Source of the DNA: Owenia fusiformis
Lineage: Eukaryota > Annelida > Polychaeta > Sabellida > Oweniidae
Assembly (NCBI GenBank): GCA_903813345.2
Contig: CAIIXF020000009.1
Coordinates: 35,023,759 to 35,087,758, forward strand
Direction of reading: 5' to 3'
DNA: 64,000 bases
Under the pieces are notes generated by a model that ran no database searches, was not told where the DNA came from, and was given only the letters and a program-made list of their open reading frames with translations. Both the position numbers and the translations under genes were made by a program. Shown piece after piece: positions 12,401 through 50,800 of the stretch. How positions within the stretch are numbered: the stretch's first letter is position 1; each line of letters begins with the position of its first letter.

Positions 12401-15400
12401 GATGTTTAAGGTGAAACAGAAAGATGCTATGAGTATCAGAATGCACTGCAATGATTAATACAGTCTCAGCCCTGAGATGTTTCAGGTGAAACAGAAAGAT
12501 GCTATGAGTATCAGAATGCACTGCAATGATTAATACAGTCTCAGCCCTGAGATGTTTCAGGTGAAACAGAAAGATGCTATGAGTATCAAAAAGCACTGCG
12601 ATGATTAATACAGTCTCAGCCCTGAGATGTTTCAGGTGAAACAGAAAGATGCTATGAGTATCAGAATGCAATGCAATGATTAATACAGTCTCAGCCCTGA
12701 GATGTTTCAGGTGAAACAGAAAGATGCTATGAGTATCAGAATGCACTGCAATGATTAATACAGTCTCAGCCCTGAGATGTTTTAGGTGAAACAGAAAGAT
12801 GCTATGAGTATCAGAATGCACTGCAATGATTAATACAGTCTCAGCCCTGAGATGTTTCAGGTGAAACAGAAAGATGCTATGAGTATCAGAATGCACTGCA
12901 ATGATTAATACAGTCTCAGCCCTGAAATGTTTCAGGTGAAACAGAAAGATGCTATGAGTATCAGAGTGCACCGCAATGATAAATACAGTCTCAGCCCTGA
13001 GATGTTTCAGGTGAAACAGAAAGATGCTATGAGTATCAGAATGCACTGCAATGATTAATACAGTCTCAGCCCTGAGATGTTTCAGGTGAAACAGAAAGAT
13101 GCTATGAGTATCAGAATGCACTGCAATGATTAATACAGTCTCAGCCCTGAAATGTTTCAGGTGAAACAGAAAGATGCTATGAGTATCAGAATGCACTGTA
13201 TTGATTAATACAGTCTCAGCCCTGAAATGTTTCAGGTGAAACAGAAAGATGCTATGAGTATCAGAGTGCACCGCAATGATTAATACAGTCTCAGCCCTGA
13301 GATGTTTCAGGTGAAACAGAAAGATGCTATGAGTATCAGAATGCACTGCAATGATTAATACAGTCTCAGCCCTGAGATGTTTCAGGTGAAACAGAAAGAT
13401 GCTATGAGTATCAGAATGCAATGCAATGATTAATACAGTCTCAGCCCTGAGATGTTTCAGGTGAAACAGAAAGATGCTATGAGTATCAGAATGCACTGCA
13501 ATGATTAATACAGTCTCAGCCCTGAGATGTTTCAGGTGAAACAGAAAGATGCTATGAGTATCAGAATGCACTGCAATGATTAATAGTCTCAGCCCTGAGA
13601 TGTTTCAGGTGAAACAGAAAGATGCTATGAGTATCAGAATGCACTGCAATGATTAATAGTCTCAGCCCTGAGATGTTTAGGTGAAACAGAAAGATGCTAT
13701 GAGTATCAGAGTGCACCGCAATGATTAATACAGTCTCAGCCCTGAGATGTTTCAGGTGAAACAGAAAGATGCTATGAGTATCAGAATGCACTGCAATGAT
13801 TAATACAGTCTCAGCCCTGAGATGTTTCAGGTGAAACAGAAAGATGCTATGATATATCAGAATGCACTGCAATGATTAATACAGTCTCAGCCCTGAGATG
13901 TTTCAGGTGAAACAGAAAGATGCTATGATATATCAGAATGCACTGCAATGATTAATACAGTCTCAGCCCTGAGATGTTTTAGGTGAAACAGAAAGATGCT
14001 ATGAGTATCAGAATGCACTGCAATGATTAATACAGTCTCAGCCCTGAGATGTTTCAGGTGAAACAGAAAGATGCTATGAGTATCAGAATGCACTGCAATG
14101 ATTAATACAGTCTCAGCCCTGAGATGTTTAGGTGAAACAGAAAGATGCTATGAGTATCAGAATGCACTGCAATGATTAATACAGTCTCAGCCCTGAGATG
14201 TTTCAGGTGAAACAGAAAGATGCTATGAGTATCAGAATGCACTGCAATGATTAATACAGTCTCAGCCCTGAGATGTTTCAGGTGAAACAGAAAGATGCTA
14301 TGAGTATCAGAATGCACTGCAATGATTAATACAGTCTCAGCCCTGAGATGTTTCAGGTGAAACAGAAAGATGCTATGAGTATCAGAATGCACTGCAATGA
14401 TTAATACAGTCTCAGCCCTGAGATGTTTCAGGTGAAACAGAAAGATGCTATGAGTATCAGAATGCACTGCAATGATTAATACAGTCTCAGCCCTGAGATG
14501 TTTCAGGTGAAACAGAAAGGTGCTATGAGTATCAGAGTGCACCGCAATGATTAATACAGTCTCAGCCCTGAGATGTTTCAGGTGAAACAGAAAGATGCTA
14601 TGAGTATCAGAGTGCACCGCAATGATTAATACAGTCTCAGCCCTGAGATGTTTCAGGTGAAACAGAAAGATGCTATGAGTATCAGAATGCACTGCAATGA
14701 TTAATACAGTCTCAGCCCTGAGATGTTTAGGTGAAACAGAAAGATGCTATGAGTATCAGAATGCACTGCAATGATTAATACAGTCTCAGCCCTGAGATGT
14801 TTCAGGTGAAACAGAAAGATGCTATGAGTATCAGAATGCACTGCAATGATTAATACAGTCTCAGCCCTGAGATGTTTCAGGTGAAACAGAAAGATGCTAT
14901 GAGTATCAGAATGCACTGCAATGATTAATACAGTCTCAGCCCTGAGATGTTTAGGTGAAACAGAAAGATGCTATGAGTATCAGAGTGCACCGCAATGATT
15001 AATACAGTCTCAGCCCTGAGATGTTTCAGGTGAAACAGAAAGATGCTATGAGTATCAGAATGCACTGCAATGATTAATACAGTCTCAGCCCTGAGATGTT
15101 TCAGGTGAAACAAAAAGATGCTATGAGTATCAGAATGCACTGCAATGATTAATACAGTCTCAGCCCTGAGATGTTTCAGGTGAAACAGAAAGATGCTATG
15201 AGTATCAGAATGCACTGCAATGATTAATACAGTCTCAGCCCTGAGATGTTTCAGGTGAAACAGAAAGATGCTATGAGTATCAGAATGCACTGCAATGATT
15301 AATACAGTCTCAGCCCTGAGATGTTTCAGGTGAAACAGAAAGATGCTATGAGTATCAGAATGCACTGCAATGATTAATACAGTCTCAGCCCTGAGATGTT

Positions 15401-18400
15401 TCAGGTGAAACAGAAAGGTGCTATGAGTATCAGAGTGCACCGCAATGATTAATACAGTCTCAGCCCTGAGATGTTTCAGGTGAAACAGAAAGATGCTATG
15501 AGTATCAGAGTGCACCGCAATGATTAATACAGTCTCAGCCCTGAGATGTTTCAGGTGAAACAGAAAGATGCTATGAGTATCAGAATGCACTGCAATGATT
15601 AATACAGTCTCAGCCCTGAGATGTTTAGGTGAAACAGAAAGATGCTATGAGTATCAGAATGCACTGCAATGATTAATACAGTCTCAGCCCTGAGATGTTT
15701 CAGGTGAAACAGAAAGATGCTATGAGTATCAGAATGCACTGCAATGATTAATACAGTCTCAGCCCTGAGATGTTTCAGGTGAAACAGAAAGATGCTATGA
15801 TATATCAGAATGCACTGCAATGATTAATACAGTCTCAGCCCTGAGATGTTTCAGGTGAAACAGAAAGATGCTATGATATATCAGAATGCACTGCAATGAT
15901 TAAACAGTCTCAGCCCTGAGATGTTTCAGGTGAAACAGAAAGATGCTATGAGTATCAGAATGCACTGCAATGATTAATACAGTCTCAGCCCTGAGATGTT
16001 TCAGGTGAAACAGAAAGATGCAATGATATATCAGAATGCACTGCAATGATTAATACAGTCTCAGCCCTGAGATGTTTCAGGTGAAACAGAAAGATGCTAT
16101 GATATATCAGAATGCACTGCAATGATTAATACAGTCTCAGCCCTGAGATGTTTCAGGTGAAACTGAAAGATGCTATGAGTATCAGAATGCACTGCAATGA
16201 TTAATACAGTCTCAGCCCTGAGATGTTTCAGGTGAAACAGAAAGATGCTATGAGTATCAGAATGCACTGCAATGATTAATACAGTCTCAGCCCTGAGATG
16301 TTTCAGGTAAAACAGAAAGATGTTATGAGTATCAGAATGCACTGCAATGATTAATACAGTCTCAGCCCTGAGATGTTTCAGGTGAAACAGAAAGATGCTA
16401 TGAGTATCAGAATGCACTGCAATGATCAATACAGTCTCAGCCCTGAGATGTTTCAGGTGAAACAGAAAGATGCTATGAGTATCAGAATGCACTGCAATGA
16501 TTAATACAGTCTCAGCCCTGAGATGTTTCAGGTGAAACTGAAAGATGCTATGAGTATCAGAATGCACTGCAATGATTAATACAGTCTCAGCCCTGAGATG
16601 TTTCAGGTGAAACAGAAAGATGCTATGAGTATCAGAATGCACTGCAATGATTAATACAGTCTCAGCCCTGAGATGTTTCAGGTGAAACAGAAAGATGCTA
16701 TGAGTATCAGAATGCACTGCAATGATTAATACAGTCTCAGCCCTGAGATGTTTTAGGTGAAACAGAAAGATGCTATGAGTATCAGAATGCACTGCAATGA
16801 TTAATACAGTCTCAGCCCTGAGATGTTTCAGGTGAAACAGAAAGATGCTATGAGTATCAGAATGCACTGCAATGATTAATACAGTCTCAGCCCTGAGATG
16901 TTTCAGGTGAAACAGAAAGATGCTATGAGTATCAGAATGCACTGCAATGATTAATACAGTCTCAGCCCTGAGATGTTTCAGGTGAAACAGAAAGATGCTA
17001 TGAGTATCAGAATGCACTGCAATGATTAATACAGTCTCAGCCCTGAGATGTTTCAGGTAAAACAGAAAGATGCTATGAGTATCAGAATGCAATGCAATGA
17101 TTAATACAGTCTCAGCCCTGAGATGTTTCAGGTGAAACAGAAAGATGCTATGATATATCAGAATGCAATGCAATGATTAATACAGTCTCAGCCCTGAGAT
17201 GTTTCAGGTGAAACAGAAAGATGCTATGAGTATCAGAATGCACTGCAATGATTAATAGTCTCAGCCCTGAGATGTTTCAGGTGAAACAGAAAGATGCTAT
17301 GATATATCAGAATGCACTGCAATGATTAATACAGTCTCAGCCCTGAGATGTTTCAGGTGAAACAGAAAGATGCTATGAGTATCAGAATGCACCGCAATGA
17401 TTAATACGGTCCAAGCCCTGAGATGTTTCAGGTGAAACAGAAAGATGCTATGAGTATCAGAATGCACTGCAATGATTAATAGTCTCAGCCCTGAGATGTT
17501 TCAGGTGAAACAGAAAGATGCTATGAGTATCAGAATGCACTGTGATGATTAATACAGTCTCAGCCCTGAGATGTTTCAGGTGAAACAGAAAGATGCTATG
17601 AGTATCAGAATGCACTGTGATGATTAATACAGTCTCAGCCCTGAGATGTTTCAGGTGAAACAGAAAGATGCTATGAGTATCAGAATGCACTGCAATGATT
17701 AATAGTCTCAGCCCTGAGATGTTTCAGGTGAAACAGAAAGATGCTATGATATATCAGAATGCACTGCGATGATTAATACAGTCTCAGCCCTGAGATGTTT
17801 CAGGTGAAACAGAAAGATGCTATGAGTATCAGAATGCACTGCAATGATAAATACAGTCTCAGCCCTGAGATGTTTCAGGTGAAACAGAAAGATGCTATGA
17901 GTATCAGAATGCACTGCAATGATTAATACAGTCTCAGCCCTGAGATGTTTCAGGTGAAACAGAAAGATGCTATGAGTATCAGAATGCACTGCAATGATTA
18001 ATACAGTCTCAGCCCTGAGATGTTTCAGGTGAAACAGAAAGATGCTATGAGTATCAGAATGCACTGCAATGATTAATACAGTCTCAGCCCTGAGATGTTT
18101 CAGGTGAAACAGAAAGATGCTATGAGTATCAGAATGCACTGCAATGATTAATACAGTCTCAGCCCTGAGATGTTTCAGGTGAAACAGAAAGATGCTATGA
18201 GTATCAGAATGCACTGCAATGATTAATAGTCTCAGCCCTGAGATGTTTAAGGTGAAACAGAAAGATGCTATGAGTATCAGAATGCACTGCAATGATTAAT
18301 ACAGTCTCAGCCCTGAGATGTTTCAGGTGAAACAGAAAGATGCTATGAGTATCAGAATGCAATGCAATGATTAATACAGTCTCAGCCCTAAGATGTTTCA

Positions 18401-21400
18401 GGTGAAACAGAAAGATGCTATGAGTATCAGAATGCACTGCAATGATTAATACAGTCTCAGCCCTGAGATGTTTCAGGTGAAACAGAAAGATGCTATGAGT
18501 ATCAGAATGCAATGCAATGATTAATACAGTCTCAGCCCTAAGATGTTTCAGGTGAAACAGAAAGATGCTATGAGTATCAAAAAGCACTGCGATGATTAAT
18601 ACAGTCTCAGCCCTGAGATGTTTCAGGTGAAACAGAAAGATGCTATGAGTATCAAAAAGCACTGCGATGATTAATACAGTCTCAGCCCTGAGATGTTTCA
18701 GGTGAAACAGAAAGATGCTATGAGTATCAGAATGCACTGCAATGATTAATACAGTCTCAGCCCTGAGATGTTTAAGGTGAAACAGAAAGATGCTATGAGT
18801 ATCAGAATGCACTGCAATGATTAATACAGTCTCAGCCCTGAGATGTTTCAGGTGAAACAGAAAGATGCTATGAGTATCAGAATGCACTGCAATGATTAAT
18901 ACAGTCTCAGCCCTGAGATGTTTCAGGTGAAACAGAAAGATGCTATGAGTATCAAAAAGCACTGCGATGATTAATACAGTCTCAGCCCTGAGATGTTTCA
19001 GGTGAAACAGAAAGATGCTATGAGTATCAGAATGCAATGCAATGATTAATACAGTCTCAGCCCTGAGATGTTTCAGGTGAAACAGAAAGATGCTATGAGT
19101 ATCAGAATGCACTGCAATGATTAATACAGTCTCAGCCCTGAGATGTTTTAGGTGAAACAGAAAGATGCTATGAGTATCAGAATGCACTGCAATGATTAAT
19201 ACAGTCTCAGCCCTGAGATGTTTCAGGTGAAACAGAAAGATGCTATGAGTATCAGAATGCACTGCAATGATTAATACAGTCTCAGCCCTGAAATGTTTCA
19301 GGTGAAACAGAAAGATGCTATGAGTATCAGAGTGCACCGCAATGATAAATACAGTCTCAGCCCTGAGATGTTTCAGGTGAAACAGAAAGATGCTATGAGT
19401 ATCAGAATGCACTGCAATGATTAATACAGTCTCAGCCCTGAGATGTTTCAGGTGAAACAGAAAGATGCTATGAGTATCAGAATGCACTGCAATGATTAAT
19501 ACAGTCTCAGCCCTGAAATGTTTCAGGTGAAACAGAAAGATGCTATGAGTATCAGAATGCACTGTATTGATTAATACAGTCTCAGCCCTGAAATGTTTCA
19601 GGTGAAACAGAAAGATGCTATGAGTATCAGAGTGCACCGCAATGATTAATACAGTCTCAGCCCTGAGATGTTTCAGGTGAAACAGAAAGATGCTATGAGT
19701 ATCAGAATGCACTGCAATGATTAATACAGTCTCAGCCCTGAGATGTTTCAGGTGAAACAGAAAGATGCTATGAGTATCAGAATGCAATGCAATGATTAAT
19801 ACAGTCTCAGCCCTGAGATGTTTCAGGTGAAACAGAAAGATGCTATGAGTATCAGAATGCACTGCAATGATTAATACAGTCTCAGCCCTGAGATGTTTCA
19901 GGTGAAACAGAAAGATGCTATGAGTATCAGAATGCACTGCAATGATTAATAGTCTCAGCCCTGAGATGTTTCAGGTGAAACAGAAAGATGCTATGAGTAT
20001 CAGAATGCACTGCAATGATTAATAGTCTCAGCCCTGAGATGTTTAGGTGAAACAGAAAGATGCTATGAGTATCAGAGTGCACCGCAATGATTAATACAGT
20101 CTCAGCCCTGAGATGTTTCAGGTGAAACAGAAAGATGCTATGAGTATCAGAATGCACTGCAATGATTAATACAGTCTCAGCCCTGAGATGTTTCAGGTGA
20201 AACAGAAAGATGCTATGATATATCAGAATGCACTGCAATGATTAATACAGTCTCAGCCCTGAGATGTTTCAGGTGAAACAGAAAGATGCTATGATATATC
20301 AGAATGCACTGCAATGATTAATACAGTCTCAGCCCTGAGATGTTTTAGGTGAAACAGAAAGATGCTATGAGTATCAGAATGCACTGCAATGATTAATACA
20401 GTCTCAGCCCTGAGATGTTTCAGGTGAAACAGAAAGATGCTATGAGTATCAGAATGCACTGCAATGATTAATACAGTCTCAGCCCTGAGATGTTTAGGTG
20501 AAACAGAAAGATGCTATGAGTATCAGAATGCACTGCAATGATTAATACAGTCTCAGCCCTGAGATGTTTCAGGTGAAACAGAAAGATGCTATGAGTATCA
20601 GAATGCACTGCAATGATTAATACAGTCTCAGCCCTGAGATGTTTCAGGTGAAACAGAAAGATGCTATGAGTATCAGAATGCACTGCAATGATTAATACAG
20701 TCTCAGCCCTGAGATGTTTCAGGTGAAACAGAAAGATGCTATGAGTATCAGAATGCACTGCAATGATTAATACAGTCTCAGCCCTGAGATGTTTCAGGTG
20801 AAACAGAAAGATGCTATGAGTATCAGAATGCACTGCAATGATTAATACAGTCTCAGCCCTGAGATGTTTCAGGTGAAACAGAAAGGTGCTATGAGTATCA
20901 GAGTGCACCGCAATGATTAATACAGTCTCAGCCCTGAGATGTTTCAGGTGAAACAGAAAGATGCTATGAGTATCAGAGTGCACCGCAATGATTAATACAG
21001 TCTCAGCCCTGAGATGTTTCAGGTGAAACAGAAAGATGCTATGAGTATCAGAATGCACTGCAATGATTAATACAGTCTCAGCCCTGAGATGTTTAGGTGA
21101 AACAGAAAGATGCTATGAGTATCAGAATGCACTGCAATGATTAATACAGTCTCAGCCCTGAGATGTTTCAGGTGAAACAGAAAGATGCTATGAGTATCAG
21201 AATGCACTGCAATGATTAATACAGTCTCAGCCCTGAGATGTTTCAGGTGAAACAGAAAGATGCTATGAGTATCAGAATGCACTGCAATGATTAATACAGT
21301 CTCAGCCCTGAGATGTTTAGGTGAAACAGAAAGATGCTATGAGTATCAGAGTGCACCGCAATGATTAATACAGTCTCAGCCCTGAGATGTTTCAGGTGAA

Positions 21401-24400
21401 ACAGAAAGATGCTATGAGTATCAGAATGCACTGCAATGATTAATACAGTCTCAGCCCTGAGATGTTTCAGGTGAAACAAAAAGATGCTATGAGTATCAGA
21501 ATGCACTGCAATGATTAATACAGTCTCAGCCCTGAGATGTTTCAGGTGAAACAGAAAGATGCTATGAGTATCAGAATGCACTGCAATGATTAATACAGTC
21601 TCAGCCCTGAGATGTTTCAGGTGAAACAGAAAGATGCTATGAGTATCAGAATGCACTGCAATGATTAATACAGTCTCAGCCCTGAGATGTTTCAGGTGAA
21701 ACAGAAAGATGCTATGAGTATCAGAATGCACTGCAATGATTAATACAGTCTCAGCCCTGAGATGTTTCAGGTGAAACAGAAAGGTGCTATGAGTATCAGA
21801 GTGCACCGCAATGATTAATACAGTCTCAGCCCTGAGATGTTTCAGGTGAAACAGAAAGATGCTATGAGTATCAGAGTGCACCGCAATGATTAATACAGTC
21901 TCAGCCCTGAGATGTTTCAGGTGAAACAGAAAGATGCTATGAGTATCAGAATGCACTGCAATGATTAATACAGTCTCAGCCCTGAGATGTTTAGGTGAAA
22001 CAGAAAGATGCTATGAGTATCAGAATGCACTGCAATGATTAATACAGTCTCAGCCCTGAGATGTTTCAGGTGAAACAGAAAGATGCTATGAGTATCAGAA
22101 TGCACTGCAATGATTAATACAGTCTCAGCCCTGAGATGTTTCAGGTGAAACAGAAAGATGCTATGATATATCAGAATGCACTGCAATGATTAATACAGTC
22201 TCAGCCCTGAGATGTTTCAGGTGAAACAGAAAGATGCTATGATATATCAGAATGCACTGCAATGATTAAACAGTCTCAGCCCTGAGATGTTTCAGGTGAA
22301 ACAGAAAGATGCTATGAGTATCAGAATGCACTGCAATGATTAATACAGTCTCAGCCCTGAGATGTTTCAGGTGAAACAGAAAGATGCAATGATATATCAG
22401 AATGCACTGCAATGATTAATACAGTCTCAGCCCTGAGATGTTTCAGGTGAAACAGAAAGATGCTATGATATATCAGAATGCACTGCAATGATTAATACAG
22501 TCTCAGCCCTGAGATGTTTCAGGTGAAACTGAAAGATGCTATGAGTATCAGAATGCACTGCAATGATTAATACAGTCTCAGCCCTGAGATGTTTCAGGTG
22601 AAACAGAAAGATGCTATGAGTATCAGAATGCACTGCAATGATTAATACAGTCTCAGCCCTGAGATGTTTCAGGTAAAACAGAAAGATGTTATGAGTATCA
22701 GAATGCACTGCAATGATTAATACAGTCTCAGCCCTGAGATGTTTCAGGTGAAACAGAAAGATGCTATGAGTATCAGAATGCACTGCAATGATCAATACAG
22801 TCTCAGCCCTGAGATGTTTCAGGTGAAACAGAAAGATGCTATGAGTATCAGAATGCACTGCAATGATTAATACAGTCTCAGCCCTGAGATGTTTCAGGTG
22901 AAACTGAAAGATGCTATGAGTATCAGAATGCACTGCAATGATTAATACAGTCTCAGCCCTGAGATGTTTCAGGTGAAACAGAAAGATGCTATGAGTATCA
23001 GAATGCACTGCAATGATTAATACAGTCTCAGCCCTGAGATGTTTCAGGTGAAACAGAAAGATGCTATGAGTATCAGAATGCACTGCAATGATTAATACAG
23101 TCTCAGCCCTGAGATGTTTTAGGTGAAACAGAAAGATGCTATGAGTATCAGAATGCACTGCAATGATTAATACAGTCTCAGCCCTGAGATGTTTCAGGTG
23201 AAACAGAAAGATGCTATGAGTATCAGAATGCACTGCAATGATTAATACAGTCTCAGCCCTGAGATGTTTCAGGTGAAACAGAAAGATGCTATGAGTATCA
23301 GAATGCACTGCAATGATTAATACAGTCTCAGCCCTGAGATGTTTCAGGTGAAACAGAAAGATGCTATGAGTATCAGAATGCACTGCAATGATTAATACAG
23401 TCTCAGCCCTGAGATGTTTCAGGTAAAACAGAAAGATGCTATGAGTATCAGAATGCACTGCAATGATTAATACAGTCTCAGCCCTGAGATGTTTCAGGTG
23501 AAACAGAAAGATGCTATGAGTATCAGAATGCACTGCAATGATTAATACAGTCTCAGCCCTAAGATGTTTCAGGTGAAACAGAAAGATGCTATGAGTATCA
23601 AAAAGCACTGCGATGATTAATACAGTCTCAGCCCTGAGATGTTTCAGGTGAAACAGAAAGATGCTATGAGTATCAGAATGCACTGCAATGATTAATACAG
23701 TCTCAGCCCTAAGATGTTTCAGGTGAAACAGAAAGATGCTATGAGTATCAGAATGCACTGCAATGATTAATACAGTCTCAGCCCTGAGATGTTTCAGGTG
23801 AAACAGAAAGATGCTATGAGTATCAGAATGCACTGCAATGATTAATACAGTCTCAGCCCTGAGATGTTTCAGGTGAAACAGAAAGATGCTATGAGTATCA
23901 GAATGCACTGCAATGATTAATACAGTCTCAGCCCTGAGATGTTTCAGGTGAAACAGAAAGATGTTATGAGTATCAGAATGCACTGCAATGATTAATACAG
24001 TCTCAGCCCTGAGATGTTTCAGGTGAAACAGAAAGATGCTATGAGTATCAGAATGCACTGCAATGATTAATAGTCTCAGCCCTGAGATGTTTAAGGTGAA
24101 ACAGAAAGATGCTATGAGTATCAGAATGCACTGCAATGGTTAATACAGTCTCAGCCCTGAGATGTTTCAGGTGAAACAGAAAGATGCTATGAGTATCAGA
24201 ATGCACTGCAATGATTAATACAGTCTCAGCCCTGAGATGTTTCAGGTGAAACAGAAAGATGCTATGAGTATCAGAATGCACTGCAATGATTAATACAGTC
24301 TCAGCCCTGAGATGTTTCAGGTGAAACAGAAAGATGCTATGAGTATCAGAATGCACTGCAATGATTAATACAGTCTCAGCCCTGAGATGTTTTAGGTGAA

Positions 24401-27400
24401 ACAGAAAGATGCTATGAGTATCAGAATGCACTGCAATGATTAATACAGTCTCAGCCCTGAGATGTTTAGGTGAAACAGAAAGATGCTATGAGTATCAGAA
24501 TGCACTGCAATGATTAATACAGTCTCAGCCCTGAGATGTTTCAGGTGAAACAGAAAGATGCTATGAGTATCAGAATGCACTGCAATGATTAATACAGTCT
24601 CAGCCCTGAGATGTTTCAGGTGAAACAGAAAGATGCTATGAGTATCAGAATGCACTGCAATGATTAATACAGTCTCAGCCCTGAGATGTTTCAGGTGAAA
24701 CAGAAAGATGCTATGAGTATCAGAATGCACTGCAATGATTAATACAGTCTCAGCCCTGAGATGTTTCAGGTGAAACAGAAAGATGCTATGAGTATCAGAA
24801 TGCACTGCAATGATTAATACAGTCTCAGCCCTGAGATGTTTTAGGTGAAACAGAAAGATGCTATGAGTATCAGAATGCACTGCAATGATTAATACAGTCT
24901 CAGCCCTGAGATGTTTCAGGTGAAACAGAAAGATGCTATGATATATCAGAATGCACTGCAATGATTAATACAGTCTCAGCCCTGAGATGTTTCAGGTGAA
25001 ACAGAAAGATGCTATGAGTATCAGAATGCACTGCAATGATTAATACAGTCTCAGCCCTGAAATGTTTCAGGTGAAACAGAAAGATGCTATGAGTATCAGA
25101 ATGCACTGCAATGATTAATACAGTCTCAGCCCTGAGATGTTTCAGGTGAAACAGAAAGATGCTATGAGTATCAGAATGCACTGCAATGATTAATACAGTC
25201 TCAGCCCTGAGATGTTTCAGGTGAAACAGAAAGATGCTATGAGTATCAGAATGCACTGCAATGATTAATACAGTCTCAGCCCTGAGATGTTTCAGGTGAA
25301 ACAGAAAGATGCTATGAGTATCAGAATGCACTGCAATGATTAATACAGTCTCAGCCCTGAGATGTTTCAGGTGAAACAGAAAGATGCTATGAGTATCAGA
25401 ATGCACTGCAATGATTAATACAGTCTCAGCCCTGAGATGTTTCAGGTGAAACAGAAAGATGCTATGAGTATCAGAATGCACTGCAATGATTAATACAGTC
25501 TCAGCCCTGAGATGTTTCAGGTGAAACAGAAAGATGCTATGGGTATCAGAGTGCACTGCAATGATTAATAGAGCACTTTCATTCATTTTAAGAGTTATTG
25601 TTTCATTAGGAAATTGCCTCTACATCTACAGTGTATGTAATGTAACATTTTTTATCAAGTAATCTAATGAAATATTCATGATATAGATATTAAAATGATG
25701 AGCATCCTTTCTCATTACTAGTTGATTCAGATAGCATGCAATATAAGTGTACTATATCATGAACATGTACTAGCATATAAAATAAAAAAATCTTCCAATA
25801 CAGATATTATACATGCTCGAATGACAAACGCCTCTGATATTACTTGCAAAATAAATCATTGTTTTTTATTTGTTCAGAGTTTATTAAAATAATTCCCTTG
25901 AAAATATACTCTATCTTATATGACTTTGGTTATCTGATTAGTGATAGATTCAAAATGAAAATATGAAAGTTACAGAATTTGGCTTTCTCACAACAAGGTA
26001 TGGTTGGCTCTGAGCGACTTATGAGGTTTCTCTTAAACTTAAGACAAAGCTAAAGACAAGATACCACTGAGGATTTGATTGATCCTGTAAAACACATTTG
26101 TAAAATACCTCTATATTCTTGGTAATCTAGACAAGCTGATCCCAGTGGTGTAAGGCAAATCATCAATAATAGATTTAACACAAATAGTCTCAGAGATGAA
26201 AGGATCTCTTGAAGTATTATACAACAGGAAATGTTATCCTAAATTATTGATTATAGGGCCATTATAGATCTCTAATCAAACTTGATTTGAGTGGGGGTAC
26301 TTCAGTCAATGATCATTGCATTGCGAAGGTTCATTTATTTATTAAGTAAATGTTGGGTCAATGACTTAATTAGCTCAAATCAGATTGAATCATACCAAAC
26401 TATGTGGTCATCATATTTTTGAACTGATATTGAGTAACTCACCAAATACAAATATATTGTCAAACCATCTCTGTGATGGACAAGCCTGTCAACCACTTTT
26501 TAAGTACATGTACCTCTATCTATGGAAGAGGGGATCTGTCTCAATGGAGATAAGTATACAGGAAGGAAATTGCAATTATCAAACATTATATTAGGTTTCA
26601 TTAGACTTGATTTGGCTTCTAAATCACATTACTGATAAAATTCATAATATATTTGGAAGATATCTCTAATTCCTCAAATACAGTACTGTGATACATTTTC
26701 TTGATTAATCTATTCAAAGAATTTTCTTTTAAAGTTCTTAATTTGAAATGATGTCATATCTATAGCCTTATTTAGAATGTTGATATTCAAGTTATTTGAA
26801 GTGTTTATGTAAAGTTTTTTGGCTCACAAGAATACTTGAGACCCTGACAGTTATCTTAACTCAATCCTGTCTTAAAGGGACAACAAGGCCTGGAGAGAGA
26901 ACATTTGGAAATTTTTTCCTTTTTCTGAGCTATCGGGGCAACATTTGGCTTAACATCTTCTTTGATCTACCTATTTTCTTAAAATATATGGATAAACTAT
27001 CAATTTCAGCATTAAGAAGTGTAAATTCAGTTCAAAGCTTCTATAAAGGGAGTCCCAGCTTTTTAAGATCCAACATGTTACAAGAGGAATATCAGCTGAA
27101 ATATCCAAACTTAAATATATTTTGACACTGGTACCATTATCTTTGAATGGCGCCTCTGCACTAATTGTTGCACCTTTAAACTCTTTTTTTTATTTCAACA
27201 TTTCCTATATGGTGTTATCTTATCTTGAAGACACTTAAACACAAAACAATAGATATCAGACACACCTAATCAACATGTTCAATACATATCAACAACTTTA
27301 CCTAAATACAGCCTCAAGAAATGCCCTAAATGTAAGGCTTTCCTACAGTCATATGCATAAACCAATAAATCTACAAAAATTCAATTTAATTCGTTTTTGC

Positions 27401-38654: not shown

Positions 38655-38843
38655 CTATTGCACGTATACTTGTAGATTAGAGGCAGCCTGCATGAGCACC
38701 TTAAGTCCAGGCATAAATGAGCTGATCTCAGAGAAGTTTCCTTGAGTTATCATCTGAGTATGTATAGATAGTCCAGTTTGGTAATCAAACTGTTGTATAG
38801 CCTGGATTATCTGGTGAAGACCTAGCGTCACATTGGAAGATAA
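38655..38843 (-). CDS. SEC31: SEC31 terminal exon
   Basis: Splicing to acceptor ATTTCAG (38845-38844) gives 62 codons and TAG. The product is LSSNVTLGLHQIIQAIQQ, FDYQTGLSIHTQMITQ, GNFSEISSFMPGLKVLMQ and a short tail. It aligns along its length with the end of vertebrate SEC31A (LSPTITSGLH ... SNFSETSAFMP-LKV). This is the only copy of the exon that continues into the true C-terminus. Copies further upstream stop after the first 28 codons. The next three acceptors (38960, 39077, 39194) are in the same frame. Confidence 0.93.
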   Translation of the reverse strand, partial: LSSNVTLGLHQIIQAIQQFDYQTGLSIHTQMITQGNFSEISSFMPGLKVLMQAASNLQVYVQ

Positions 38844-41800
38844 CTGAAATGGGAAAGCATATATTGTAACATTGGCATGTATAGATAGTCCAGTTTGGTA
38901 ATCAAACTGTTGTATAGCCTGGATTATCTGGTGAAGACCTAGCGTCACATTGGAAGATAACTGAAATGAGAAAGCACATATTGTAACATTGGCATGTACA
39001 GATAGTCCAGTTTGGTAATCAAACTGTTGTATAGCCTGGATTATCTGGTGAAGACCTAGCGTCACATTGGAAGATAACTGAAATGAGAAAGCACATATTG
39101 TAACATTGGCATGTACAGATAGTCCAGTTTGGTAATCAAACTGTTGTATAGCCTGGATTATCTGGTGAAGACCTAGTGTCACATTGGAAGATAACTGAAA
39201 TGAGAAAGCACATATTGTAACATTGGCATGTATGTATAGATAGTCCAGTTTGGTAATCATACTGTTGTATAGCCTGGATTATCTGGTGAAGACCTAGCGT
39301 CACATTGGAAGATAACTGAAATGAGAAAGCACATATTGTAACATTGGCATGTATGTATAGATAGTCCAGTTTGGTAATCATACTGTTGTATAGCCTGGAT
39401 TATCTGGTGAAGACCTAGCGTCACATTGGAAGATAACTGAAATGGGAAAGCATATATTGTAACATTGGCATGTATAGATAGTCCAGTTTGGTAATCAAAC
39501 TGTTGTATAGCCTGGATTATCTGGTGAAGACCTAGTGTAACATTGGAAGATAACTGAAATGAGAAAGCACATATTGTAACATTGGCATGTATGTATAGAT
39601 AGTCCAGTTTGGTAATCAAACTGTTGTATAGCCTGGATTATCTGGTGAAGACCTAGCGTCACATTGGAAGATAACTGAAATGAGAAAGCACATATTGTAA
39701 CATTGGCATGTATGTATAGATAGTCCAGTTTGGTAATCAAACTGTTGTATAGCCTGGATTATCTGGTGAAGACCTAGCGTCACATTGGAAGATAACTGAA
39801 ATGAGAAAGCATATATTGTAACATTGGCATGTATAGATAGTCCAGTTTGGTAATCATACTGTTGTATAGCCTGGATTATCTGGTGAAGACCTAGTGTCAC
39901 ATTGGAAGATAACTGAAATGAGAAAGCACATATTGTAACATTGGCATGTATAGATAGTCCAGTTTGGTAATCAAACTGTTGTATAGCCTGGATTATCTGG
40001 TGAAGACCTAGTGTCACATTGGAAGATAACTGAAATGAGAAAGCACATATTGTAACATTGGCATGTATGTATAGATAGTCCAGTTTGGTAATCAAACTGT
40101 TGTATAGCCTGGATTATCTGGTGAAGACCTAGCGTCACATTGGAAGATAACTGAAATGGGAAAGCATATATTGTAACATTGGCATGTATAGATAGTCCAG
40201 TTTGGTAATCATACTGTTGTATAGCCTGGATTATCTGGTGAAGACCTAGTGTCACATTGGAAGATAACTGAAATGGGAAAGCATATATTGTAACATTGGC
40301 ATGTATAGATAGTCCAGTTTGGTAATCATACTGTTGTATAGCCTGGATTATCTGGTGAAGACCTAGCGTCACATTGGAAGATAACTGAAACGAGAAAGCA
40401 TATATTGTAACATTGGCATGTATAGATAGTCCAGTTTGGTAATCATACTGTTGTATAGCCTGGATTATCTGGTGAAGACCTAGTGTCACATTAGAAGATA
40501 ACTGAAATGGGAAAGCATATATTGTAACATTGGCATGTATAGATAGTCCAGTTTGGTAATCATACTGTTGTATAGCCTGGATTATCTGGTGAAGACCTAG
40601 TGTCACATTGGAAGATTACTGAAATGAGAAAGCACATATTGTAACATTGGCATGTATGTATAGATAGTCCAGTTTGGTAATCAAACTGTTGTATAGCCTG
40701 GATTATCTGGTGAAGACCTAGCGTCACATTGGAAGATAACTGAAATGGGAAAGCATATATTGTAACATTGGCATGTATAGATAGTCCAGTTTGGTAATCA
40801 TACTGTTGTATAGCCTGGATTATCTGGTGAAGACCTAGTGTCACATTGGAAGATAACTGAAATGGGAAAGCATATATTGTAACATTGGCATGTATAGATA
40901 GTCCAGTTTGGTAATCATACTGTTGTATAGCCTGGATTATCTGGTGAAGACCTAGCGTCACATTGGAAGATAACTGAAACGAGAAAGCATATATTGTAAC
41001 ATTGGCATGTATAGATAGTCCAGTTTGGTAATCATACTGTTGTATAGCCTGGATTATCTGGTGAAGACCTAGTGTCACATTAGAAGATAACTGAAATGGG
41101 AAAGCATATATTGTAACATTGGCATGTATAGATAGTCCAGTTTGGTAATCATACTGTTGTATAGCCTGGATTATCTGGTGAAGACCTAGCGTCACATTGG
41201 AAGATAACTGAAATGAGAAAGCACATATTGTAACATTGGCATGTATGTTGTTGTATAGATAGTCCAGTTTGGTAATCATACTGTTGTATAGCCTGGATTA
41301 TCTGGTGAAGACCTAGTGTCACATTGGAAGATAACTGAAATGAGAAAGCATATATTGTAACATTGGCATGTATAGATAGTCCAGTTTGGTAATCATACTG
41401 TTGTATAGCCTGGATTATCTGGTGAAGACCTAGCGTCACATTGGAAGATAACTGAAATGAGAAAGCATATATTGTAACATTGGCATGTATAGATAGTCCA
41501 GTTTGGTAATCATACTGTTGTATAGCCTGGATTATCTGGTGAAGACCTAGCGTCACATTGGAAGATAACTGAAATGAGAAAGCACATTTTGTAACATTGG
41601 CATGTATAGATAGTCCAGTTTGGTAATCATACTGTTGTATAGCCTGGATTATCTGGTGAAGACCTAGCGTCACATTGGAAGATAACTGAAATGAGAAAGC
41701 ACATATTGTAACATTGGCATGTATAGATAGTCCAGTTTGGTAATCATACTGTTGTATAGCCTGGATTATCTGGTGAAGACCTAGCGTCACATTAGAAGAT

Positions 41801-44800
41801 AACTGAAATGAGAAAGCACATATTGTAACATTGGCATGTATAGATAGTCCAGTTTGGTAATCATACTGTTGTATAGCCTGGATTATCTGGTGAAGACCTA
41901 GTGTCACATTGGAAGATAACTGAAATGAGAAAGCACATATTGTAACATTGGCATGTATAGATAGTCCAGTTTGGTAATCATACTGTTGTATAGCCTGGAT
42001 TATCTGGTGAAGACCTAGCGTCACATTGGAAGATAACTGAAATGAGAAAGCACATATTGTAACATTGGCATGTATAGATAGTCCAGTTTGGTAATCAAAC
42101 TGTTGTATAGCCTGGATTATCTGGTGAAGACCTAGCGTCACATTGGAAGATAACTGAAATGAGAAAGCACATATTGTAACATTGGCATGTATAGATAGTC
42201 CAGTTTGGTAATCATACTGTTGTATAGCCTGGATTATCTGGTGAAGACCTAGCGTCACATTAGAAGATAACTGAAATGAGAAAGCACATATTGTAACATT
42301 GGCATGTATAGATAGTCCAGTTTGGTAATCATACTGTTGTATAGCCTGGATTATCTGGTGAAGACCTAGTGTCACATTGGAAGATAACTGAAATGAGAAA
42401 GCACATATTGTAACATTGGCATGTATAGATAGTCCAGTTTGGTAATCATACTGTTGTATAGCCTGGATTATCTGGTGAAGACCTAGTGTCACATTGGAAG
42501 ATAACTGAAATGGGAAAGCACATATTGTACATTGGCATGTATAGATAGTCCAGTTTGGTAATCATACTGTTGTATAGCCTGGATTATCTGGTGAAGACCT
42601 AGCGTCACATTGGAAGATAACTGAAATGAGAAAGCACAAATTGTAACATTGGCATGTATAGATAGTCCAGTTTGGTAATCATACTGTTGTATAGCCTGGA
42701 TTATCTGGTGAAGACCTAGCGTCACATTAGAAGATAACTGAAATGAGAAAGCACATATTGTAACATTGGTATGTATGTATAGATAGTCCAGTTTGGTAAT
42801 CATACTGTTGTATAGCCTGGATTATCTGGTGAAGACCTAGTGTCACATTGGAAGATAACTGAAATGGGAAAGCACATATTGTAACATTGGCATGTAAAGA
42901 TAGTCCAGTTTGGTAATCATACTGTTGTATAGCCTGGATTATCTGGTGAAGACCTAGTGTCACATTGGAAGATAACTGAAATGAGAAAGCACATATTGTA
43001 ACATTGGCATGTATAGATAGTCCAGTTTGGTAATCATACTGTTGTATAGCCTGGATTATCTGGTGAAGACCTAGCGTCACATTGGAAGATAACTGAAATG
43101 AGAAAGCACATATTGCAACATTGGCATGTATAGACAGTCCAGTTTGGTAATCATACTGTTGTAAAGCCTGGATTATCTGGTGAAGACCTAGCGTCACATT
43201 GGAAGATAACTGAAATGAGAAAGCACATATTGTAACATTGGTATGTATGTATAGATAGTCCAGTTTGGTAATCATACTGTTGTAAAGCCTGGATTATCTG
43301 GTGAAGACCTAGTGTCACATTGGAAGATAACTGAAATGAGAAAGCACATATTGTAACATTGGCATGTATAGACAGTCCAGTTTGGTAATCATACTGTTGG
43401 ATAGCCTGGATTATCTGGTGAAGACCTAGCATCACATTGGAAGATAACTAAAATGAGAAAGCACATATTGTAACATTGGCATGTATAGATAGTCCAGTTT
43501 GGTAATCATACTGTTGTATAGCCTGGATTATCTGGTGAAGACCTAGCATCACATTGGAAGATAACTGAAATGAGAAAGCACATATTGTAACATTGGTATG
43601 TATGTATAGATAGTCCAGTTTGGTAATCATACTGTTGTATAGCCTGGATTATCTGGTGAAGACCTAGTGTCACATTGGAAGATAACTGAAATGGGAAAGC
43701 ATATATTGTAACATTGGCATGTATGTATAGATAGTCCAGTTTGGTAATCATACTGTTGTATAGCCTGGATTATCTGGTGAAGACCTAGTGTCACATTGGA
43801 AGATAACTGAAATGAGAAAGCACATATTGTAACATTGGCATGTATAGACAGTCCAGTTTGGTAATCATACTGTTGTATAGCCTGGATTATCTGGTGAAGA
43901 CCTAGTGTCACATTGGAAGATAACTGAAATGAGAAAGCATATATTGTAACATTGGCATGTATAGACAGTCCAGTTTGGTAATCATACTGTTGTATAGCCT
44001 GGATTATCTGGTGAAGACCTAGTGTCACATTGGAAGATAACTGAAATGAGAAAGCACATATTGTAACATTGGCATGTATAGACAGTCCAGTTTGGTAATC
44101 ATACTGTTGTATAGCCTGGATTATCTGGTGAAGACCTAGTGTCACATTGGAAGATAACTGAAATGAGAAAGCATATATTGTAACATTGGCATGTATAGAT
44201 AGTCCAGTTTGGTAATCATACTGTTGTATAGCCTGAATAATCTGGTGAAGACCTAGCATCACATTGGAAGACTAGATAACGGCAACTCCGCGGAGTAGCA
44301 AATCCCAACGAACAAAATATCAATTACCGAATTCCAATCAATTATACTCATTACTTTGGTTGAAAATGAAAAAACTAGATTTTAGAATTGCGAATTCCTG
44401 CAAAGCAGCCATTTTGAATTTTCTGAGGTACAAATCTGAAAAATAATACCATAATTGTGATCTACTCCAAAATTCCTTCAATTTGAGTATAATATAGCCA
44501 TACTTTGAAGGGATCGAAAAATTATTGCGAAATCATACATTAGACAGCCATTTTGAATTTTACTAGGCTCGAATCAGAAAAAAGATACAATATTTGCAAT
44601 GTACTCTTAATTGCCTTTCATTTGAGTATAATAAAGCTATACTTCAGAAAGATCTAAAAATTAGCGAAAATTTCTGTTTTCCTGTCCCCCCATACATGGC
44701 CCCTGGGGGTCAGGATGAAAAACACGGAATATATGTGAAATAGATAAATGTTGTGAATACACTACCAAAATTTCAAACAATAATATTTATTACTTTGGTT

Positions 44801-47800
44801 TAGAATGAAAAATTTATGATTTTTGCGAAAAAGTCCCGTCATTTTTAAAGCGGCGGCCATCTTGAAAAAAAAATTTTTTGCATAAAACTATTGACCAATA
44901 TACATCTTTCCACTAAATATGAAGAAAATCTGTCAACTAGAATTTGAGTTATCTTCCGGACAGACGGACGGACTGACTGACTGATGGACTGACAGACTGA
45001 CGGACAGACGGATGGACGGACGGACGGAGGGCTTCACTATATCCCTAACGAACTTCGTTCGTTGGGATAATAACTGAAATGAGAAAGCACATATTGTAAC
45101 ATTGGTATGTATGTATAGATAGTCCAGTTTGGTAATCATACTGTTGTATAGCCTGGATTATCTGGTGAAGACCTAGTGTCACATTGGAAGATAACTGAAA
45201 TGGGAAAGCAAATATTGTAACATTGGCATGTATAGATAGTCCAGTTTGGTAATCATACTGTTGTATAGCCTGGATTATCTGGTGAAGACCTAGTGTCACA
45301 TTGGAAGATAACTGAAATGGGAAAGCATATATTGTAACATTGGCATGTATAGATAGTCCAGTTTGGTAATCATACTGTTGTATAGCCTGGATTATCTGGT
45401 GAAGACCTAGTGTCACATTGGAAGATAACTGAAATGGGAAAGCACATATTGTACATTGGCATGTATAGATAGTCCAGTTTGGTAATCATACTGTTGTATA
45501 GCCTGGATTATCTGGTGAAGACCTAGTGTCACATTGGAAGATAACTTAAATGGGAAAGCACATATTGTAACATTGGTATGTATGTATAGATAGTCCAGTT
45601 TGGTAATCATACTGTTGTATAGCCTGGATTATCTGGTGAAGACCTAGCATCACATTGGAAGATAACTAAAATGAGAAAGCATATATTGTAACATTGGCAT
45701 GTATAGATAGTCCAGTTTGGTAATCATACTGCTGTATAGCCTGGATTATCTGGTGAAGACCTAGTGTCACATTGGAAGATAACTGAAATGGGAAAGCACA
45801 TATTGTACATTGGCATGTATAGATAGTCCAGTTTGGTAATCATACTGTTGTATAGCCTGGATTATCTGGTGAAGACCTAGTGTCACATTGGAAGATAACT
45901 TAAATGGGAAAGCACATATTGTAACATTGGTATGTATGTATAGATAGTCCAGTTTGGTAATCATACTGTTGTATAGCCTGGATTATCTGGTGAAGACCTA
46001 GCATCACATTGGAAGATAACTAAAATGAGAAAGCATATATTGTAACATTGGCATGTATAGATAGTCCAGTTTGGTAATCATACTGCTGTATAGCCTGGAT
46101 TATCTGGTGAAGACCTAGTGTCACATTGGAAGATAACTGAAATGGGAAAGCACATATTGTACATTGGCATGTATAGATAGTCCAGTTTGGTAATCATACT
46201 GTTGTATAGCCTGGATTATCTGGTGAAGACCTAGTGTCACATTGGAAGATAACTTAAATGGGAAAGCACATATTGTAACATTGGTATGTATGTATAGATA
46301 GTCCAGTTTGGTAATCATACTGTTGTATAGCCTGGATTATCTGGTGAAGACCTAGCATCACATTGGAAGATAACTAAAATGAGAAAGCATATATTGTAAC
46401 ATTGGCATGTATAGATAGTCCAGTTTGGTAATCATACTGCTGTATAGTCTGGATTATCTGGTGAAGACCTAGTGTCACATTGGAAGATAACTGAAATGAG
46501 AAAGCACATATCGTAACATTGGCATGTATAGATAGTCCAGTTTGGTAATCATACTGTTGTATAGCCTTGATTATCTGGTGAAGACCTAGCGTCACATTAG
46601 AAGATAACTGAAATGAGAAAGCACATATTGTAACATTGGCATGTATGTATAGATAGTCCAGTTTGGTAATCATACTGTTGTATAGCCTGGATTATCTGGT
46701 GAAGACCTAGCGTCACATTGGAAGATAACTGAAATGAGAAAGCACAAATTGTAACATTGGCATGTATAGATAGTCCAGTTTGGTAATCATACTGTTGTAT
46801 AGCCTGGATTATCTGGTGAAGACCTAGCGTCACATTAGAAGATAACTGAAATGATAAAGCACATATTGTAACATTGGCAAGTATAGATAGTCCAGTTTGG
46901 TAATCATACTGTTGTATAGCCTGGATTATCTGGTGAAGACCTAGTGTCACATTGGAAGATAACTGAAATGAGAAAGCACATATTGTAACATTGGCATGTA
47001 TGTATAGATAGTCCAGTTTGGTAATCATACTGTTGTATAGCCTGGATTATCTGGTGAAGACCTAGTGTCACATTGGAAGATAACTGAAATGGGAAAGCAC
47101 ATATTGTAACATTGGCATGTATAGATAGTCCAGTTTGGTAATCATACTGTTGTATAGCCTGGATTATCTGGTGAAGACCTAGTGTCACATTGGAAGATAA
47201 CTGAAATGAGAAAGCACATATTGTAACATTGGCATGTATAGATAGTCCAGTTTGGTAATCATACTGTTGTATAGCCTGGATTATCTGGTGAAGACCTAGC
47301 GTCACATTAGAAGATAACTGAAATGGGAAAGCACATATTGTAACATTGGCCAACACATCACAAACCCCTTAAAACATGTTGAATTATATAAAACAATACA
47401 AAAAGTCATGAGAATAATGAAATGAAAGTGATTCATTTGTCTTGAAATATACTAACACAAACACCAGCATATGGTTAAAGCAGATATGAAATGATATATT
47501 TGACCTAAAGGAATCAAAATAATTTTTTGATAAATGTATTTGGACATGTTTTCTCATCAGTATTGTAAAAATTGTTTCACTCTAACGATCGTTATAGCTG
47601 CTTAATAAGCACTATTCGAATTGGTTGTGACATTATTGGCCCCCACGTGATCTCTCACTGGCCCCCACGTGACCTGCTCTGGTCCACTGAATATGACGTC
47701 ATTTGTTTTAGTAACGCCTTAGCAACTCTACTGCCGCCACTCTATGTTTACAAAATGCCGCCATGCATACTTTGTGATGTAGTCTCAGTAAACATACAGC

Positions 47801-50800
47801 CTTATTATCCTACGACCATGTACTGTACCCTATTGAACAATGTGCCCCTATTACAGTAGAGACGTTGGGTACGATTGCTGTATCATATTGCATTTGAACG
47901 GCGATACGGCAATTTAAATTTAATGAAATATTTTGTCCTAGATATCGTTTCTTTGTACCCCACGGCACAAGGACCGATTATAGCATATTTTCCCCAAAAC
48001 TGTGAAATTGAAATGTTCATCATTTCGGCAATATTAAATGTAGAAATAGCATCAATTTTTTATTCATATTGGAAGAACATATACAGAGTAAACATTTCCT
48101 CGCGGTCATTTAAATTCCACCGTATGCAATTACTTTTGTAGGTTTGTAATTTAAATTTTCGCTTATTTCGGGCAAAAAACAAAAATGAACTTTGGGGTTG
48201 AGGTACTCTCTAGAGGCAAGAATTACATAAACTAGACACGCTTTTAGTTTTAGGTTTATCGTCTTGCACAAACTTTTGGGTTTAGATTTATCCTAACACT
48301 GATGTTTTAGGTATGTTAGTCTCAGGTTTTAGTCATTGCTAGATCGCGTCAAAGTGCTAACATGGCTAAGTCCCGTTTGCATTACCATGGTCCCCAGACG
48401 GGCAATGATGCCATCGACGATTTAGAAATCCATCCAGAAACAAAATAGAGCTAGAACTTTTAAGTGCCATTTAAAAAAAATCTTTTTTTCTTGACGAAGA
48501 CACGTACATCATACAAACATCATTCAATTCCATGAAGAAATAAACTCAAATAAAAGTTATCGAGAAATTCTCGAAACCTTTATTGCAAGGTCGTTATTGC
48601 AATTCCAAGTGCGCAAAGAAGGCTTTATTTTGTTCCATAATACATATCAACTACATGCCTTCATGTACCTTAGACTGGCAAGATAACATTTTGAGAGGGA
48701 TCATCCGATCTAATATTATATCAAAGTTTTATTTTTCCTTGGATACCGACAAACCTACAAGTTCCCGTAAAAAAACTTTTCTCCCAAGGAAAAATGTATC
48801 GTTTTAACTGAATCTTTCAAAGAAATCATATCGAAAACAAACATTATGTGCAATATTATTGACATTTTTTGTTAAATATACTGGTCATACTTATTACTTA
48901 GTAATGTATCTTGTCGGTACACGATGTAACCAGACTTTGTTACTTGTGCCTATTTTCGTAATTCAAAAGATCAGTGAATTGTAATTTGAAGTACTGTTTA
49001 GCCAAATGTAAAATTGGTTGTCTGGGTAGGTATCAAACATCATTCTTTCAAAATAAAATAAGAAATGTATTTCAACGCATTGATCGCAGTACACAATGGT
49101 TATTTTTAAGTTACGCTGGAAGTTATTCAAATGACTTTTTATCATCACAAGATTAAATTTCGAATTATAATATTTGCTTGACTAGTTGATCCGTTGTAGG
49201 CTGTTGTATCCGAGCACAGTCAATATGCAGTTATGATTTTGGCCAAGCCCAAATCATCAAGTCTAAAGAAGAAAATATAGATCATGATTTGAGCTTGCCC
49301 AAATCAAATGCATACCGACTGTGTATCCGGACTATAATAAAAAATTTGTTCTCTATTTGTTGGCACAACAATCGTGCGGTTGCTATGACTTCGCAATTTC
49401 CATGATCTCTAAGAAATCAAACTAGAAATAATTATGGCGTCATTGATCACGTGGGGGCCAATCTGTTTAATCTGTTATTTTATTATACCGTTATTAAGAG
49501 CATTAACAGGTGTTTATCATTTACTTTTAAATGGTTAACGGGAGAAATCCACGTTCGGCTTACAATGCAGAAAACCGCATTTTTCTAGCTGCAAGTTAAG
49601 AAAACCTATTTCATTTGTCCTTTAACCTTTAGCATGCTACCGGCGAGCGTAGTCGCCCGTGCTTAACAATCCCCGGCAACTGCCGGCGACTCCAGTCGAA
49701 TTTAAACTTTCAAAAACTTAACTTTTTCCCGCCGGTCTTATGATCCAATCAGATTACCCGATTTATTCAGTCCTTACGTGGGGACTTCCTGTTGACCTAG
49801 AAATGGCGATGTTTCGAAAAATATTTCTCAATTCAACGATTTAAACAGTGTTTAAGTCGTTTTTAGTGAACAAATCGTACAAAATGGCGGCCAAATACGA
49901 TCACAACGAACATGTGGAGGAAATGGATCGCGGTTTCGAGCTCTTTAGGCTCTTGGAAGCCGATAATGGTAATCGAAAATAGAAACTAGAATATTTTCTG
50001 AACTGAAAAATGAACATTCGATCGCTGCAAATTCAGTTTTGGATTCTGACCAGACGTTGAATCTCCACAGGGGCGAAGCGGCGGATTCCGGAGGAGTAAT
50101 CATGGTATATTTATGGCCAGTCCTGTTTATTTATGTAAAAAATCCATGAGAACATTTTTTTCACGAGCCAGGCCAATGTATCTTCTCTTTGTGAAAATTT
50201 TATCGAGATTCATTCAGTAGTTATTGAGATATTAATTATTTAGTCCAGGCATATCATTTTTTGCACTCTTTGAAGAATAAGTCAGTCGCGTGGGATATAT
50301 TTGCTGAATTAAGTTAGCATGCAGAAGGTTAATATGTAGAATTTATAAGTGAAGTATCTATATTAGAATCAATATCATTCTTAAAAACTTGAAATGAAAC
50401 CTCCAAAAATGTAAAATCCACACTAATGTACATACCCTATTTTCTCGTAATCTATCATAAAGGGCTTCTAATTTCTTATTTACATCATCTAGTTTCCTCT
50501 TCATTTGCTGAAATAAAGACAGAAAACTATAAATGATAAACTCAAAAGTAAATGTATCAAAAAATGTAAGATTTTCGTCTCATTATTATTTTTAAGAAAA
50601 TTTTTCCTACAACATGATGCAAAGCCTCGGTGTATATAGATAGATACACTACATAATGGGATATCAACAAAATTAATCCAAAATAAAAGTGAAAAAAGTG
50701 AATCTATTCATTAAGAATTTTACAGATGTAGTTATCATATGAATATCTATTTTCATTTGTACTTACTGCATTGCTAGCCTTGCCCATGCATTGCTTTGCT

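Follow-up and report, generated by a model that had tools for sequence, protein, structure and literature searches.

A stretch of 64,000 nucleotides from the annelid Owenia fusiformis (assembly GCA_903813345.2, contig CAIIXF020000009.1, positions 35,023,759 to 35,087,758 of the forward strand; hereafter, the window) carries on its minus strand a gene that runs towards the end of the window and that we identify as SEC31. SEC31 is an essential gene, and its last intron here holds the large tandem array that is the subject of this report. The identification follows from the exon readings, a match of the last three exons to the Pfam family SRA1 (25.5 bits, against a cut-off of 23.3) and a weak but collinear match to the C-terminus of yeast SEC31 (residues 1164-1266; E 0.034); it bears out an earlier reading of this DNA by a model (the original prediction). 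A genome search with 283 residues of the SEC31 exons gave 71 matches, all 71 inside this locus, and therefore found no second SEC31. Searching the genome for the SRA1 and COX1 families returned nothing; the SRA1 search detected its family in 0 of 14 controls and is uninformative, while COX1 was detected in 8 of 14. The exon upstream of the array, with its donor AGG/GTATGT, lies where it had been placed. The terminal exon starts at 38843 in phase 0, and an AATAAA is found about 430 bases past the real stop (Table 1).

The array comprises 66 units, as had been estimated, of which 65 are whole and one is split by a 799-bp high-copy element. Its location also stood, but its bounds move from 38755-47349 to 38760-47350. 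Each unit joins 33 intron bases, mostly ending in TTTCAG, to 84 exon bases that are 28 codons of the terminal exon; the proposal that the unit derives from SEC31's own 3' splice site and terminal exon is thus upheld. Both of the breakpoints claimed for it can be read in the 117-bp form, where one unit meets the next at CTATACAT/GCCAATG. By length there are 44 records of 117 bp, 15 of 121 bp (with an added ACAT), 4 of 116 bp, and one each of 127 and 1037 bp, the last consisting of two units, the second of which bears the 799-bp insert. The acceptor AG is intact in all 66 units, and the base at position -3 is C in 59, T in 4 and A in 3. Beyond the array lie unique intron at one side and the unique rest of the exon at the other, which fits the prediction of an in-place duplication. 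The unit at the exon edge continues into the C-terminal codons and is therefore the authentic section. Pfam matches of the bare repeat all fell below the cut-offs and were dismissed.

Table 1. Coordinates of the SEC31 features in the window and of splice-junction and whole-exon arrays in sampled 10-kb stretches (L-numbers) of the same genome
Feature	Position	Strand	Basis
Coding part and stop of the real terminal exon: 28 array-shared codons, then TQMITQGNFSEISSFMPGLKVLMQAASNLQVYVQ*	38655..38843	-	SRA1 match
Open frame through last four units and real end, 179 codons	38658..39194	-	
66-unit array, each unit with 33 bp of intron end and 84 bp of exon start; real unit 38876-38760	38760..47350	-	Tandem Repeats Finder (TRF)
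Last SEC31 intron, ~11.6 kb, containing the array minus the real exon copy	38844..50435	-	
Interspersed high-copy element of 799 bp within one unit, 3 bases past acceptor	44272..45070		
Transposon-like 1.8-kb stretch in same SEC31 intron, flanked by perfect 18-bp inverted repeats	47635..49462		
Penultimate SEC31 exon (QMKRKLDDVNKKLEALYDRLRENR), donor AGG/GTATGT	50436..50507	-	
Sodium/nucleoside transporter acceptor and exon start, 179-bp unit, ~5.6-kb array	L006 6607-10000 and L019		PDB match 8tzd, E 7e-10
MSP-domain gene, donor-side array, 39-bp unit, 18 donor copies, 17 with GT (12 GTAAGTG)	L010 3884-4513		Pfam Motile_Sperm, E 4e-10
Same MSP-domain gene, second donor-side array, 87-bp unit, 20 + 5 copies	L010 4-1797 with L020		gene context
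Glycosyltransferase acceptor array, 4 copies	L017 5124-5500		E 3e-9
28-bp array starting exactly at donor of homeobox exon, otherwise intronic, 18 GGTGAG	L026 8719-9195		Homeodomain, E 9e-9
Tandem whole-exon array, VWC	L018 2225-3214		
Tandem whole-exon array, TSP1 domain exon	L021 3422-5065		

The 65 records compared differ pairwise by 2.8% on average, a likeness far beyond chance, and repeated blocks of three and of five units are visible. The ends of the array are about as near to the consensus as its middle, and the edge copies are not more diverged. The low mean difference, the shared variants and the block copies are compatible with homogenisation. In a genome search with the unit, 67 of 67 matches fell inside this array; none was found elsewhere, although a match missed by the search tool is no proof of absence. 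Dispersed satellite DNA would be expected at many loci, and all of the matches found lie at one. This anatomy was read from one assembly and repeats are hard to assemble, so the copies could in principle have been multiplied by misassembly. That explanation is barely credible: the copies show ordered variants and block structure, one of them carries a single insertion, and the same anatomy, built of different units, occurs at other loci.

The array had been thought to contain a single copy that leads to the real C-terminus. Translation in the real intron phase corrects this: four of the 66 acceptors (39194, 39077, 38960 and 38843) reach the true end, giving 179, 140, 101 and 62 residues, respectively, and thus adding zero to three extra 39-residue repeats. 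Translation from each of the other 62 ends at a premature stop, 0 to 451 residues on; the reading frame is broken by the +4 units and the 799-bp insert, among others. Variants were counted outside the split unit, unit bases 1-8 and the last three exon bases. Outside the junction bases, the 65 units hold 25 distinct variants: the 25 intron sites account for 11 of them and the 81 exon sites for 14. The 14 in the exon part comprise 6 synonymous and 8 non-synonymous changes, including one stop (P 0.09-0.19 against random change). The array copies show no firm sign of selection.

Acceptor strength was scored with a small matrix for which 11 of the 14 SEC31 contexts were used; left out one at a time, these score -0.9 to 13.8 bits (median 9.3). 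Acceptors of the array have a median of 4.2 bits (range -2.6 to 6.4) and the real acceptor has 2.5 bits; both values are lower than those of most other SEC31 acceptors, and sequence strength therefore does not single out the real site. The best GT in the unit agrees with the donor consensus at 6 of 9 positions, against 7 of 9 for the real donor, and none equals the latter.

These data bear on the possibility that the array is in use. Leaky acceptor choice would then yield SEC31 isoforms with one to three extra 39-residue repeats, or truncated C-termini and transcript decay, and so tune COPII output. The intact AGs of all 66 units, units that mostly have a length divisible by three and an open frame, the continuous frame from the last four units to the real end, and copy acceptors that overall score no worse than the real one all speak for such a role. 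However, nearly all of the acceptors (62 of 66) run into a stop ahead of the real end, and the copies show no clear coding constraint. By rough arithmetic, a unit length divisible by three with an open intron part has a chance near 0.2 and is unremarkable. Intact AGs, too, are no surprise at this level of divergence: with 9 variable sites among the 25 of the intron part, two sites would be spared by chance with a probability of about 0.4, again by rough arithmetic. A single-sequence AlphaFold2 fold of the four-repeat product (predicted local distance difference test score 44.7) was uninformative and was not used. We consider a function of this kind unlikely. An effect of the array on splicing or on the C-terminus, as originally suggested, is possible.

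The 799-bp insert has copies elsewhere that are 97-98% identical (among 40 scored of 2202 first-look candidates). Since it is thus a high-copy element with close relatives elsewhere, at least the split unit is older than the insertion. Apparently, two copies of one high-copy element, with a 139-bp internal repeat and a CGGA-rich stretch, lie in the window at 2557-3177 and 44406-45028; the second sits within the SEC31 array. The sole AATAAA or ATTAAA of the array on the gene strand, at 44791, belongs to the insert. It raises the possibility of an alternative terminal exon, in which the acceptors at about 45073-45428 would be paired with this signal to make a short SEC31 isoform. The hexamer lies 282 bases below the acceptor at 45073 and is followed by a GT-rich stretch, as such an exon would have it. 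On the other hand, signal-like hexamers are common by chance at 35% GC, and the upstream part of the same intron holds nine other AATAAA or ATTAAA sequences. We regard an isoform of this origin as very improbable.

We conclude that this is probably a giant array of the mirage type (mirages being the boundary minisatellites described from lancelets), produced by in-place amplification of the last SEC31 intron/exon boundary, with decoys that are mostly ignored. It is best read as a neutral local amplification. A 117-bp segment across the boundary would have been tandemly duplicated in place; unequal exchange or slippage, with the copying of multi-unit blocks, would presumably then have raised the number of copies to 66. 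Amplification in place would leave the outermost copy whole and attached to the rest of the real exon; SEC31 would therefore survive and the array be tolerated. Exon definition is an established principle of splicing, and it would favour the outermost acceptor, which has a complete terminal exon and a nearby polyadenylation signal. The 65 upstream copies lack such a context, save for the AATAAA of the insert, and would be mostly ignored because the complete exon belongs only to the outermost copy. If one of the next three acceptors were used now and then, the protein would gain 39, 78 or 117 in-frame residues. The presence of the same anatomy in other genes of the genome counts in favour of this reading, as do published excerpts reporting lancelet mirages without disturbance of regular splicing.

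Several points weigh against this conclusion. We infer the use of the outermost acceptor from sequence. The exon part of the unit has proportionally fewer variable sites (13 of 81) than the intron part has (9 of 25; Fisher P 0.047), a possible hint of constraint on the exon copies. The 11 contexts of the acceptor matrix were chosen by eye, and the array median is reached by 63 of the 885 AGs of the upstream region, which makes the acceptor score a blunt tool. The best GT of the unit falls one position short of the real donor, and the copies may be used in an exon-like manner. Finally, the AATAAA of the insert may supply upstream acceptors with a terminal exon of their own.

SEC31 is not singular in this respect, for splice-site arrays occur in other genes of the same genome. 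We examined 28 arbitrarily chosen 10-kb stretches, placed at round coordinates on 12 contigs (280 kb in all; 12 large contigs make up 477.5 Mb of the 498.3-Mb assembly), taking as arrays the TRF results with a period of at least 25, at least 2.5 copies and a span of at least 150 bp and setting aside rows below these values. The sample holds 23 tandem arrays. Five take in an authentic splice site of some other gene, and a further two consist of whole exons (Table 1); four of the five are one-sided and carry a sizeable part of the exon at the junction. In these four exon-bearing arrays, it is the copy at the edge, continuous with the complete exon, that is authentic. The units of the transporter array and of the 87-bp array matched the genome at their own loci only. 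The transporter exons had no Pfam match over the cut-off, so that their identity comes from the PDB match; the exon of the 87-bp unit, likewise lacking a Pfam match, was assigned by gene context, and the 20 copies printed have GTA donors. In the VWC array, the edge copy has the donor GTAAGT, against GTTCGTT in the other copies printed.

Four ambiguous arrays (L011 1-612, L011 4377-4838, L025 1153-2460 and L017 8555-9262) were counted as non-junction. The first resembles an exon end with a donor GTAAGT, its Pfam match lying below the cut-off. The L025 array has six copies of a 225-bp unit, the first of which holds AAACAG/GTTGCTAGAACCATTGGAGAG/GTATG, a sequence that resembles a 21-base microexon. 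Of the remaining stretches, L009 and L012 contain copies of one interspersed element with flanks alike, and L029 has an apparent repeat inside a coding exon without a Pfam match. The window itself contains a further array, 15.8 kb long (9812-25570), in which a 75-bp unit recurs about 210 times with 97% identity. At 39 scattered genome places (39 scored of 569 candidates, the array itself being outside the scored rows), 41-47 of the 75 bases match, so that this unit is at least partly of interspersed-repeat origin; it was not counted as a junction array.

These observations raise the possibility that a process linked to transcription or splicing seeds arrays at exon boundaries in this genome, an addition to local amplification at SEC31 rather than its opposite. 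Random placement would put 0.96-2.39 of 23 arrays on boundaries, and the sample has five, or seven with the whole-exon arrays (P 0.003-0.095 for at least five and 0.00006-0.011 for at least seven). The stricter count of four arrays with a sizeable exon part weakens this excess (P 0.017-0.22). Moreover, the number of boundaries (200,000-500,000) is an assumption, one gene accounts for two of the arrays, the classification was made by eye and after the fact, and 4 of the 23 are ambiguous in class. Scaled to the genome, five arrays per 280 kb correspond to about 8,900 (Poisson range about 2,900-20,800), and the strict four to about 7,100 (1,900-18,200). Splice junctions might thus be a preferred birthplace of private minisatellites, with thousands of decoy-site arrays of which SEC31, whose 66 acceptors are unranked by strength, is the extreme case; we advance this idea tentatively and with some doubt. 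If it were true, the choice of the outermost copy would show exon definition acting genome-wide.

The SEC31 array is a natural experiment on splice-site choice, for it places 66 near-identical acceptors, differing mainly downstream, in one intron. Which of them is used would directly test the complete terminal exon against acceptor strength or transcription order. As an extreme case of a known oddity, the array poses the question of how splicing separates a real site from decoys. Since similar arrays turn up in other genes, boundary arrays seem to exist beyond lancelets, and they could feed the evolution of exons and introns.

The SEC31 array has the anatomy of a mirage, a kind already known from lancelets: its units are part exon and part intron, splice signals are kept in 66 of 66, and an authentic edge section is joined to the rest of the exon. 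The claim that no case of the kind had been described does not hold, since lancelet mirages (including those of PMC3902484) and the ABCA7 variable number tandem repeat (VNTR; PMC5954066) precede it. The comparisons that follow draw on excerpts of the published reports. Lancelet mirages, which occur on the acceptor or the donor side, likewise have units across a splice boundary, many copies with AG or GT, and an adjoining authentic section; PMC3902484 adds PGBD5 and TnC as cases. Unit sizes are comparable (117 bp in SEC31; 10-72 bp in Adh3 and 150-160 bp in the globins of lancelets).

In human ABCA7, the VNTR of intron 18 reaches about 427 units and includes a splice donor; exon 19 skipping increases with its length, alleles may exceed 10 kb, and one retained unit was found in cDNA (PMC5954066). 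Like the SEC31 array, it is an intronic tandem array containing a canonical splice site. It differs in its 25-bp unit, which opens with the donor GT, in its donor-side position and in that the excerpts mention no exon part; the array at the homeobox donor is nearer to it than the SEC31 array is. Intron gain in potato RdRp (PMC4974935) likewise involved a duplication across an acceptor with inherited splice signals, but this was a single duplication that created a new intron, with no array. In human segmental duplications (PMC2812944), internal tandem repeats at boundaries alter gene structure, as at SEC31, but these concern recently duplicated gene families and novel introns with RNA support. 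A literature search on this kind of boundary array found no SEC31 case.

The host is Owenia fusiformis rather than a lancelet, and, unlike the lancelet mirages in these excerpts, the array stands at a terminal exon. Its edge copies are not more diverged, whereas those of lancelet BflGb6 stand apart from concerted evolution. Further, it has 66 units over 8.6 kb, against 6 and 3 units in BflGb6 and 3 in PGBD5. Set beside the excerpted mirages, what is new here is thus the size (66 units against at most 6), the position at a terminal exon and the recurrence of such arrays within one genome.

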